Source: a virus. From it: a DNA stretch of 30,735 bases. Location: the IMG/VR virus record IMGVR_UViG_3300042465_002487, positions 1 to 30,735 of that record, one strand, 5' to 3'. The notes under the pieces were generated by a model, which saw only the letters and a program-made list of their open reading frames with translations, made no database searches and was not told where the DNA came from. Below, one piece after another: positions 10,796-17,276 of this stretch; positions within the stretch are counted from its first letter, which is position 1, and each line of letters starts with the position of its first letter. Position numbers and translations under genes: made by a program.

Positions 10796-11248
10796 ATGAT
10801 ACTTATAACACCACATTTAACACTTGCAGAAGTTACTCGTACAAGTGCAAAAGCTCCCAACGTTCCTACTCCTTTACATTTAGAGAATATTAAACTACTT
10901 GCTGAAAAGGTATTTGAGCCACTTAGAGCGCTTGTGGATGCACCAATTACTGTAAATAGTGTATACCGTTCAAAAGAAGTAAATGCACTTACTAAAGGCG
11001 CTAGTTTAACTTCACAACATTGTAAGGGGCAAGCTATGGATATTGAGGGTACAAATGTAAGCAATGCTACATTAGGTAGATTGATTAAAGATAATTTAAC
11101 TTTTGACCAATTAATTTTTGAAAAGCCAGTCAATGGAGAACCTAGTTGGATTCATGTTAGTTACTCAAATACTAGAAACCGTAAACAAGTATTAATATTT
11201 GTAAATAATAAATATATTCCTTTTAATACGAATCTAATTAACAAATAA
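10796..11248 (+). CDS. Endolysin, M15-type peptidase
   Basis: A 150-residue peptidase of the M15 family (M15_3-like), predicted to cleave peptidoglycan cross-links at the end of infection. The zinc-site signature is complete: SQHCKGQAMDIEG supplies His75 and Asp82, and SWIHVSY supplies His120. NSVYRSKEVNAL upstream matches the substrate-side segment before the first ligand. There is no signal peptide, so export probably relies on the holin candidate upstream. It is the last gene before a strong terminator and ends the late run. Confidence 0.9.
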   Translation: MILITPHLTLAEVTRTSAKAPNVPTPLHLENIKLLAEKVFEPLRALVDAPITVNSVYRSKEVNALTKGASLTSQHCKGQAMDIEGTNVSNATLGRLIKDNLTFDQLIFEKPVNGEPSWIHVSYSNTRNRKQVLIFVNNKYIPFNTNLINK

Positions 11249-11308
11249 TACTTACATTTACACATTCATAATTTTTCTATTAGGTATCCAGAGATAACTG
11301 AAAACACT

Positions 11309-11336
11309 AAAACCCGTTGCGCCCGTAACGGGTTTT
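11309..11336 (+). terminator. Strong intrinsic terminator after the lysis cassette
   Basis: A perfect 10-bp stem, AAAACCCGTT paired with AACGGGTTTT, around an 8-base loop. The T-tract is formed by the 3' stem end plus TTCTT. It lies 60 bp past the endolysin stop and just before the accessory-operon promoter, so it is the natural end of the late transcript. Confidence 0.9.
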
Positions 11337-15052: not shown

Positions 15053-15058
15053 AATAAA

Positions 15059-15419
15059 CGTAAAAAGTTAAACCAAAACGTAAAAAGTTAAAATAAATGT
15101 TTTTACGGGTTTTAGTACTGAAAATCAACTACTTACAACAAATCGTAAAAAGTTGAATCAACTAATAAAAATGTTTTTACAGCCTATAAACCAATGATAG
15201 CAAAGGTTTACATTAAAAACGTAAAAACATTTTTAAAAACACCTACTTATTATAGATATAAAAATACAGTAAAACGCTAATTTTTATTTTTTTTATTTTT
15301 CACTAAAAAAACATCTAAAGTTTTTACAGTTGATAGCTAAAGCTTTACTACCATTGACTTAAGAGCCGTAAAAAGTTGCGTAAAAAGTGCGTAAAAACAC
15401 CGTAAAAACCCGTAAAAAC
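15059..15419. other. Candidate replication origin with CGTAAAAA iterons
   Basis: Within 361 bp there are nine copies of CGTAAAAA on the + strand (starting at 15059, 15079, 15144, 15220, 15367, 15379, 15390, 15401, 15411) and three inverted copies (15099-15107, 15173-15180, 15320-15327, the last two matching eight of nine bases of the extended site). The first two are 20 bp apart, and the last five are spaced 12, 11, 11 and 10 bp, close to one helical turn. Early copies continue as AGTTAA/AGTTGA and later ones as ACA/ACC. The array directly precedes the SF3 helicase genes, as in initiator-helicase replicons. The initiator is inferred to be one of the two downstream proteins. No gene of useful length lies here. 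Confidence 0.75.
15274..15318. other. AT-rich tract, candidate DNA-unwinding element
   Basis: A long T/A run (TTTTTATTTTTTTTATTTTT, then CACTAAAAAAACATC) sits between the outer and the tandem iterons. Easily melted DNA next to iterons is the normal site of initial strand opening in iteron origins. The assignment rests on composition and position only. Confidence 0.5.
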
Positions 15420-15437
15420 ATTTTATTAATTTATTTG

Positions 15438-15467
15438 TTTGTGATATTAAAAATTTTACTATATTTG
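15438..15467 (+). promoter_or_regulatory. Bacteroidota-type promoter for the replication genes
   Basis: TTTG at 15438-15441, an 18-bp spacer, and TATATTTG at 15460-15467. Transcription would begin near 15473, just before the first arm of the interleaved inverted repeats. The upstream end lies only 19 bp past the last iteron, so binding of the initiator to the array could also repress this promoter. Confidence 0.75.
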
Positions 15468-15472
15468 TAATC

Positions 15473-15580
15473 AGGTAAGCCTTGGAACTTCCTTAAAGAA
15501 ATTAATTTAAAACCCATTTGTTAAAAGTCATCCAAGGCGCTTTTTTCAAATGGGTTTTGTCATTTAACAATATTAAATTT
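15473..15580 (+). ncRNA. Structured leader RNA: interleaved inverted repeats
   Basis: From the predicted transcription start to the next ATG there are two interleaved perfect repeats. GCCTTGGA (15479-15486) matches TCCAAGGC (15531-15538). AAAACCCATTTG (15509-15520) matches CAAATGGGTTTT (15547-15558). The second can be extended inside by AAAAG/CTTTT (15523-15527 with 15540-15544), which places TCCAAGGC in the hairpin loop. The order 1-2-1'-2' is that of a pseudoknot or of competing hairpins. The AAAACCC...GGGTTTT arms resemble the late terminator at 11309-11336, so attenuation or a free-standing RNA of about 90 nt is possible. Confidence 0.55.
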
Positions 15581-15871
15581 ATGTGTACAAAATTTTGGAG
15601 TGAAAAACATTTAGGAGGTTATTATATTGATGATGGACTATTTAATTTGTTTTTAAAAAGTAATGGTTTCTTTAAAAGAAGATATTTAAATACTTATGAA
15701 ATTGTTGTAAAGGAAAATGACATAATAAAAGTTATACATTTATTTGAAATGAAATACTTTGTTATTAAATACTTAATTGATAATAATGTAAGTAAATATG
15801 TTTTTTCTGTAATAGATAAAAAGAAGTATTTTAATATTAACCTACTAACTGAAATTGAAAATGAACAATAA
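15581..15871 (+). CDS. Mini-protein duplicating the N-terminal domain of the SF3 helicase
   Basis: A 96-residue protein from the ATG at 15581. An upstream in-frame extension to 15518 would run through the leader hairpin, so I reject it. It aligns with residues 9-102 of the next gene: both have FW near the start, then FL..(S)(N/G)GFFK, then a D/K-rich strand, then KYFVIKYLIDNN against KDFVLDYVLDNE, then a similar spacing to the end (LLTEIENE against FLSQIVSKE). It therefore appears to be a tandem duplication of that domain, expressed alone. It could bind the iterons, regulate the helicase, or be a decaying copy. It overlaps the helicase start by 11 bp. Confidence 0.7.
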   Translation: MCTKFWSEKHLGGYYIDDGLFNLFLKSNGFFKRRYLNTYEIVVKENDIIKVIHLFEMKYFVIKYLIDNNVSKYVFSVIDKKKYFNINLLTEIENEQ

Positions 15872-17276
15872 TAATTTAGAACCATTTTGGAGAATAAGCC
15901 AAGACGGAAAACCATCACTAAGTATTTTAGGATTTAGAAGATTTTTAGAGGGTAGTGGATTTTTTAAAAATAGACCTAATGAAAACAGTACATTTAATTT
16001 GATAAAAAAAGAGGGGATATTTTTAGAGATAAAAGATGAAACTGATATAAAGGATTTTGTACTAGATTACGTTTTAGATAATGAAGATAATGAATCAGTT
16101 TATAATTTAATGGCTGGAAAGACAACTACATTTAAAAGAGATTTTTTATCTCAAATAGTTAGTAAAGAAATCAAAGTTTTAAAAGATACAAAAGAAACAG
16201 CTTATTTGTTTTATGAAAATGGAATATTAGAAGTTAAAAAAGATAGTAAAACTCTTAAAAATTATAGTGATTATGGAGTTTCAATATGGAAAGACCAGGT
16301 TATTAAAAGAAAATATATTGAAAGTGATCATCATGAAAGCGAGTTTAGAACTTTTATTTGGAAAATTAGCGGTGAAAATGTAGATAGGTACAATACTTTT
16401 CAGACTGTTATAGGTTATTTAATACATTCATACAAATCAAAAGTTGATAATAAGGCTATAATTTTAAATGATGAAATGATAAGCGACGAGCCAAACGGTA
16501 GAAGTGGAAAGGGTTTACTTTGGAATGCTTTGGGATTAATGAAAAGGGTACAATCTTTAAACGGTAAATCATTTTCTTTTTTAGATCAATTCCCTTATCA
16601 ATCTATTAAAACAGATTGTCAGATACTTGTTTATGACGATGTAAAACCAAACTTTGCTTTTATAAATCTATTCTCAATGATTACAGAAGGGATGGAAATT
16701 ACTTATAAAGGACAAAATACTATCAAGTTACCAGTAGAAGATTCCCCAAAGATATTGATTACTACAAACTACGTTATTAAAGGAACTGGAGGTTCACACG
16801 ATGCTAGAAAGTTTGAAGTTGAGTTAAGTTCTTTTTTTAATGCTAATCATTCCCCTCAAGATTTCTTTGGACACATGCTATTTGATGACTGGGATATTAA
16901 AGAGTTCGCTAGATTTGACTGCTACATGATTGAATGTATTAAAAAGTATTTAAATTTTGGTTTAATGAAATATAATAGTATTTCTTTACCGTTTAAAAAG
17001 TTAGAGGTTGAGTTAACCAAAGAGTTAATGGAATGTTTAGTAGGTTTAATTTCTAATGAATGGTATGAATCAAAGTGGTTTTATGATTTTTACGAAAGCC
17101 AATTGATTAATAAATTTGATAGAAATAAATTAACAAAAAATAAGGTTTCAATTTGCATTAAAAAGTATTGCGAATTTTATAATTATGAATATGAAAGTGT
17201 TTCACCTGGTGGGATTAAAAAATTTAAAATAAATAAAACTAATGTAAATCCTAAAACTTTGGAAAAATGGAATTAA
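15861..17276 (+). CDS. SF3-type replicative helicase (P4/D5-like)
   Basis: A 471-residue protein counted from the ATG at 15861. A TTG two codons upstream is also possible. The C-terminal ATPase has Walker A NGRSGKGL (212-219), Walker B QILVYDD (254-260), motif C KILITTN (297-303) and a downstream Arg (DARKFEV, about 316), the order of superfamily 3 helicases of P4 alpha, D5 and related phage/plasmid replication proteins. Residues 1-105 form a separate domain that is duplicated in the preceding mini-gene. No primase-type zinc or TOPRIM motif is evident, so priming may depend on the host. The protein would unwind the adjacent iteron origin. It overlaps the next gene by 10 bp. Confidence 0.85.
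   Translation: MNNNNLEPFWRISQDGKPSLSILGFRRFLEGSGFFKNRPNENSTFNLIKKEGIFLEIKDETDIKDFVLDYVLDNEDNESVYNLMAGKTTTFKRDFLSQIVSKEIKVLKDTKETAYLFYENGILEVKKDSKTLKNYSDYGVSIWKDQVIKRKYIESDHHESEFRTFIWKISGENVDRYNTFQTVIGYLIHSYKSKVDNKAIILNDEMISDEPNGRSGKGLLWNALGLMKRVQSLNGKSFSFLDQFPYQSIKTDCQILVYDDVKPNFAFINLFSMITEGMEITYKGQNTIKLPVEDSPKILITTNYVIKGTGGSHDARKFEVELSSFFNANHSPQDFFGHMLFDDWDIKEFARFDCYMIECIKKYLNFGLMKYNSISLPFKKLEVELTKELMECLVGLISNEWYESKWFYDFYESQLINKFDRNKLTKNKVSICIKKYCEFYNYEYESVSPGGIKKFKINKTNVNPKTLEKWN

Follow-up and report, generated by a model that had tools for sequence, protein, structure and literature searches.

Genomic context and parts of the leader

The window, which is the whole stretch of DNA analysed (30,735 nt, or 30.7 kb), is the record of a virus of Flavobacterium-like bacteria and contains genes for terminase, portal, and tape-measure proteins. 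The leader under study lies downstream of an exonuclease region, in which the exonuclease gene has matches among Flavobacterium phages, and upstream of a phrog_28855 replication gene (E 2e-83; positions 15861 to 17276, + strand), the second gene of the operon, whose product we take to be a D5/VirE-type helicase; its homologue in MW202828 carries the label "vire al domain". The first gene after the leader (15581 to 15871, + strand; ORF in frame from the ATG at 15581) encodes 96 aa with similarity to residues 10-101 of the protein encoded next (27% identity, E 2e-7), and by this similarity it is read as a partial duplication of the N-terminal domain of the replication protein. An ORF from TTG 15518 was rejected as separate coding and is merely a 5' extension of the gene starting at ATG 15581. 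Directly upstream of the leader promoter, CGTAAAAAGTT-like repeats pointing either way form an AT-rich array from 15056 to 15424, and several relatives (L003, L005, L009, L015-L019) have an array with another repeat unit at the same place. The array is possibly an origin or operator array.

All parts of the leader lie on the + strand. The promoter, read from the sequence, is of the Bacteroidota type (15439 to 15467; TTG at 15439-15441, 18-nt spacer, TATATTTG at 15460-15467); an earlier note on this DNA had placed a promoter here, and it is present in a form that is invisible to a sigma-70 scan. It is followed by a hairpin, P0 (15473 to 15493; MFE fold and covariation), in which AGG(T)AAG at 15473-15479 pairs with CTTCCT at 15488-15493 around a loop at 15480-15487. 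In the window P0 is weak and imperfect, and its loop is the first kissing strand K5 (GCCTTGGA, 15479 to 15486), the first G of which also closes P0. The conserved linker AAAGAAATTA (15495 to 15504) recurs in leaders whose helices share no sequence. The terminator-like hairpin P2 (15509 to 15558) pairs AAAACCCATTTG at 15509-15520 with CAAATGGGTTTT at 15547-15558, and it encloses the inner helix P3 (15523 to 15544; AAAAGT at 15523-15528 with GCTTTT at 15539-15544), both being derived from the MFE fold and covariation. The loop of P3 contains the second kissing strand K3 (TCCAAGGC, 15531 to 15538), as assigned by sequence, swap test, and covariation. The next start codon, ATG 15581, lies 22 nt past CAAATGGGTTTT.

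The four arms that the earlier note had listed were confirmed as exact and unique in the window (GCCTTGGA at 15479, AAAACCCATTTG at 15509, TCCAAGGC at 15531, and CAAATGGGTTTT at 15547), in the order 1-2-1'-2'. In the window, interleaved perfect repeats of this kind (one of 8 bp or more and one of 12 bp or more, spanning no more than 110 nt) occur once; 4 of 300 dinucleotide-shuffled versions also contained such a pair, and the pattern by itself is thus a hint and no proof. The likeness of the hairpin arms to the terminator at 11309 was likewise borne out; the latter (11307-11335) is a plain terminator, AAAACCCGTTG...CGGGTTTT, after a gene ending at 11248, and it scored at chance level in both covariance models described below. 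Model matches on the reverse strand of the window and at 11270 were rejected as palindrome echoes or a plain terminator.

Homologous leaders in other phages

Relatives of the phrog_28855 replication protein are encoded at 80 viral loci. Upstream of them the same 1-2-1'-2' layout was found with other letters, for example ACGGTCAAA/TTTGACCGT, GGGCAG/CTGCCC, and ACGTCGAAAA/TTTTCGACGT. A covariance model (R1; 14 leaders, P2 and P3 only) matched a leader in most of the 80 loci, on the coding strand and upstream of the gene. About 65 further leaders came from a second model (R2, based on 39 leaders) and from searching IMG/VR with a promoter-plus-linker pattern that was independent of any gene. The first seeds were chosen partly for a visible K pairing, and leaders obtained by the pattern search necessarily contain the promoter and linker. 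P2 and P3 form part of the models, P0 and K of neither, and most leaders were gathered without regard to P0 or K. Four low-scoring or K-less entries (L216, L277, L291, and L265:2634) were kept out by hand when a set of 105 was assembled, and the non-redundant set consisted of 86 leaders with <95% identity from IMG/VR contigs and cultured Flavobacterium phages; because the leaders are related, these are not 86 independent events.

The layout common to the 86 loci comprises a Bacteroidota promoter, P0 with loop K5, a AAAGAAATTA-like linker, P2/P3 with loop K3, and a start codon. Besides the promoter, the linker is the only well conserved sequence. The cultured carriers are the Flavobacterium phages snork6-1 and its relatives, 11b, and FCL-2. 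One leader copy is shared by 34 records (snork6-1 relatives), and snork6-1 has two. Phage 11b (L300, 33621-33729) and FCL-2 (L302, 37475-37591) each have an unannotated leader immediately upstream of a hypothetical gene. Two leaders occur together in five contigs (L027, L129, which is snork6-1, L150, L184, and L208), each copy before its own gene and with a different K.

No leader match was obtained in MW202828, Leef_1, BT-TP2, phi10:1 (50 of 53.7 kb), or MT835542, and the match in phage 6H was at chance level only. With strict filters, 395 cellular Bacteroidota genomes gave two weak matches (L087 and L088) and essentially no leaders; L087 was rejected as an ordinary terminator without K. A Phage_integrase gene, the only recombinase family searched, was detected in 1 of 43 RNA-bearing records, which are often fragments, and was absent from the window.

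Covariation and the kissing contact

K5 and K3 pair in 84 of the 86 RNAs, with a median of 8 nt and with 68 different K5 sequences. A pairing of at least 7 nt was observed in 85% of the RNAs, as against 6.6% with partners swapped. Both P0 and P3 were found in 81/86 RNAs, with 54 different P0 5' arms, and the loops often consist of exactly the paired 6-7 nt, as in L176, where GGGA[ATGCAG]TCCC faces GTG[CTGCAT]CAC. In an alignment of 16 leaders, 93% of the paired cells were complementary (70% when shuffled, and 34-54% when partners were slid), and 85 cells showed double changes compared with 29 in the shuffled alignments, a result reached in 0 of 500 shuffles. Four separate helices covary in this alignment. 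The K helix alone was 100% paired in the 16 leaders, with 19 double changes (5.2 when shuffled; 0/500) and no single-side change. The partner-swap test and covariation, both over all helices and for K alone, rule out a chance origin of the pattern. Dozens of related viruses have the leader although hardly any of its letters are the same, and it is thus the pairing itself that evolution has kept.

The earlier note had explained the interleaved repeats by an H-type pseudoknot in which the inner AAAAG/CTTTT pairs open. In such a fold a loop pairs with a single-stranded flank, whereas both K strands lie inside the closed hairpins P0 and P3 in 81/86 RNAs, and complementary loops of two hairpins are kept by covariation. 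The inner helix P3 is likewise conserved and covaries, and the two closed hairpins therefore meet loop to loop; by sequence comparison the leader RNA is thus a kissing complex and not an opened-stem pseudoknot. The note had overlooked the 5' hairpin AGG(T)AAG/CTTCCT, also covarying, which places arm 1 in a loop, as well as the conserved linker. Its structured leader ahead of replication genes was supported, and so was its expectation that related phages would preserve both complementary pairs, as 84 of the 86 leaders do; the opened stem was the part that failed.

In 70/86 leaders, the predicted fold of the coding-strand RNA is more stable than that of the reverse complement. The length of the linker correlated negatively with that of P2 plus P3 (-0.32), and an intramolecular length constraint is therefore unsupported. 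K diverges about 1.2-1.7 times as fast as the remaining RNA (0.11 vs 0.05-0.10, 0.21 vs 0.10-0.15, and 0.24 vs 0.15-0.20). This divergence and the different K in two-copy contigs fit a specificity code, without proving it, and neutral compensatory drift could also give such an excess. In one subclass of leaders (L022, L026, L176, and others), an invariant AGUA stands opposite GAA between P2 and P3 (alignment A4 columns 64-68 and 80-82), which is the signature of a bulged-G (loop E/sarcin-ricin) internal loop.

Transcription signals and downstream genes

The promoter motif TAnnTTTG recurs in the homologous leaders, and TTG was present in the -33 zone of 48/86 leaders compared with 11/86 in a control zone. 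P0 begins a median of 5 nt past the motif and hence lies at the expected 5' end of the transcript. At the other end, a mean of 5.9 T was counted in the 8 nt past the last G/C of the 3' arm (86 homologues; background 29% T), so that a stable hairpin with a U-tract upstream of a gene is present across the homologues, as in an intrinsic terminator or attenuator, and termination is predicted. The terminator-like nature that had been proposed for the second hairpin is supported, and the separate RNA of about 90 nt is plausible, the predicted length having a median of 88 nt. In the window, just TTTTG follows the G/C part, and the hairpin was not called by the terminator scan, whose loop limit is 8 nt. 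An ATTTAA-like stretch after the terminator-like hairpin was seen in many otherwise unrelated leaders, for example at 15562-15567 of the window (CATTTAA region).

The start codon of an early or replication gene lies a median of 20 nt downstream of the hairpin. TAnnTTTG was found between hairpin and start codon in none of the leaders, and the gene is therefore transcribed through the hairpin, either from the leader promoter or from further upstream. The first genes belong to unrelated families, including phrog_28855, replication initiation, ParB-like, DNA methyltransferases, and HNH and homing nucleases.

A third copy of the loop sequence at the start codon

K5 recurs (at least 6 nt) between the hairpin and the start codon in 22 of 84 leaders; in 20 of these, the copy, K5'', ends no more than 4 nt from the start codon. 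When each leader was instead compared with the K5 of another, the count averaged 0.8 and reached at most 5 (2000 trials). The K3:K5'' energies were bimodal, with 25 leaders at -10 kcal/mol or stronger and the others at -6 or weaker; the strong ones are similar to K5:K3, for which the mean was -13 kcal/mol. In L002, L008, L229, and L136, the only differences of K5'' from K5 are ones that still allow G-U pairing with K3. The window RNA has no K5'' copy near its start codon, and because the same is true of about 70% of the relatives, start-site blocking cannot be the family-wide function. Among the matches listed, K5 matches elsewhere in the genomes were chance-like and none stood before a start codon, so trans targets beyond the leader itself are not visible there.

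Proposed mechanism and alternative explanations

Comparative analysis established the structure and position of the leader, and from these we infer trans action and a regulatory direction, and with them the existence of a switch and its trigger. The best explanation, in which we place about half of our confidence, is that the leader is a structurally new base-pairing regulator of leader read-through and translation that works like P4 CI RNA and P1 c4 RNA, in phages that mostly lack an integrase. Transcription from the promoter at 15460 would make P0 at once, with its loop K5 complementary to the K3 loop. P3/P2 would then form an intrinsic-terminator-like stem whose end lies some 20 nt upstream of the first replication-operon gene; some nascent transcripts would terminate as an RNA of about 88 nt, and others would continue into the operon. 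K3 may serve as an antisense seed, and K5 as the upstream partner that holds K3 by kissing. In relatives with K5'', translation may be blocked when K3, from the same or another molecule, binds over the start site. Overall, the dosage of the replication genes would be controlled by RNA base pairing alone.

The main alternative, a possibility to be taken seriously although it is less than probable, is a leader acting in cis only, in which the kissing pair makes the leader compact and this fold is recognized, perhaps at AAAGAAATTA, by a phage replication protein or a host factor, and nothing happens in trans. Once bound, the protein would determine read-through or translation, in the way that T4 gp32 acts on its own pseudoknot leader. 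This agrees with the conservation of the linker, with the median distance of 20 nt from hairpin to start codon, with the variety of gene families behind the leaders, and with the lack of trans targets among the matches listed. However, the first genes belong to unrelated families, so no single gene product can be the sensor, and K5'' is more natural as an RNA-pairing partner.

A further step from the favored base-pairing regulator is suggested tentatively, and we consider it rather doubtful: the terminated RNA, holding both a target (K5) and an antisense (K3), would pair in trans with new leaders and with K5''. If so, the RNA would accumulate with genome copies and turn the replication genes off in mainly virulent phages, the diverging loops would be a specificity code separating co-infecting phages and co-resident copies, and the leader would constitute an RNA incompatibility system in lytic phages.

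That the terminated transcript of about 88 nt is itself the product, as a free structural or host-directed RNA with possibly intermolecular kissing and an incidental neighbour gene, is unlikely. Such an RNA would have its own promoter and a terminator-like end, as observed, and fully complementary loops of 6-8 nt are typical of intermolecular kissing; however, an early or replication gene follows at a median of 20 nt with no promoter between, across unrelated genes, and K5'' links the RNA to the next start codon. Very unlikely is a processive antitermination RNA of the HK022 put or Bacillus EAR type, whose hairpins bind RNA polymerase so that later terminators are passed: the leader does stand at the very start of early transcripts, but the element itself ends in a U-tract, its loops vary freely with complementarity alone kept, unlike sequence-specific polymerase contacts, and K5'' is left unexplained. 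A feature at the DNA level (operator or origin repeats, a cruciform) or chance beside an ordinary terminator, to which the upstream repeat array and the 4 positive shuffles might point, can hardly be correct, given that four separate helices covary, the coding strand folds better, and the GU-type changes in K5'' stay pairable with K3.

The proposed mechanism is directly testable in cultured phages (11b, FCL-2, and the Moomin phages). The three-way complementarity, in which loops diverge without losing their pairing, is a natural source of orthogonal RNA switches and perhaps a path to RNA-based exclusion among virulent phages.

Comparison with known RNA regulators

In plasmid copy control (ColE1 RNA I/II, IncFII CopA/CopT, and the IncI pseudoknot), loop-loop pairing of 6-8 nt occurs near a replication gene. 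There the antisense is a separate transcript of the opposite strand, whereas here both loops are on one strand of one transcript. A search of the 4227 Rfam families gave no covariance-model match at gathering score in the window or in nine homologous loci; relaxed matches such as mir-722 were rejected as hairpin look-alikes far below their cut-offs. No description of this leader family was found in the literature searched.

The P4 CI RNA is an antisense RNA from an untranslated leader that pairs with seqA upstream and seqC downstream, which leads to termination and turns the P4 replication genes off (PMC4825925). The order seqA-CI-seqC is that of K5-K3-K5'' in the relatives; the upstream copy is present in 84/86 leaders, and the downstream copy in about 30% of the relatives and not in the window. 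Here, however, K5 and K3 are in the closed hairpin loops of one RNA of about 88 nt that starts at the promoter, K5'' is at the start codon and is absent from about 70% of members as well as the window, and most carriers have no integrase and do not appear temperate by this mark. Because an integrase was found in just 1/43 contigs, most carriers are unlikely to use the RNA for lysogenic immunity in the manner of P4 or P1.

The c4 RNA of P1/P7 carries antisense hairpin loops derived from the leader of its own target, and a loop occludes the ribosome-binding site; the loop sequences vary and set specificity (PMC5320573). In our set, a loop able to pair with the ribosome-binding site of the following gene was absent from the window and present in 22/84 relatives by exact match, or in 25 by energy. 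The leader has two hairpins compared with three stem-loops in c4 (RF01695), and, judging from its signals, its own promoter and terminator-like end in place of trimming by RNase P. RF01695 gave no match at gathering score in the window and nine homologous loci, nor at relaxed E-value in the window. In the IsrK system of prophage Gifsy-1, one promoter gives rise to a short RNA by termination and to a longer mRNA by read-through, and the former acts on the latter (PMC4825925); this isoform logic is like that proposed for the kissing leader, although IsrK activates translation through another structure.

In summary, the leader is not filed under P4 CI, c4, or IsrK, because Rfam gave no match, the window lacks the downstream copy, and an integrase was present in only 1/43 records. 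Rather than a member of those families, the kissing-hairpin leader is an undescribed, widespread RNA family, placed where replication switches on in a large and poorly studied group of phages of Flavobacterium and its relatives.
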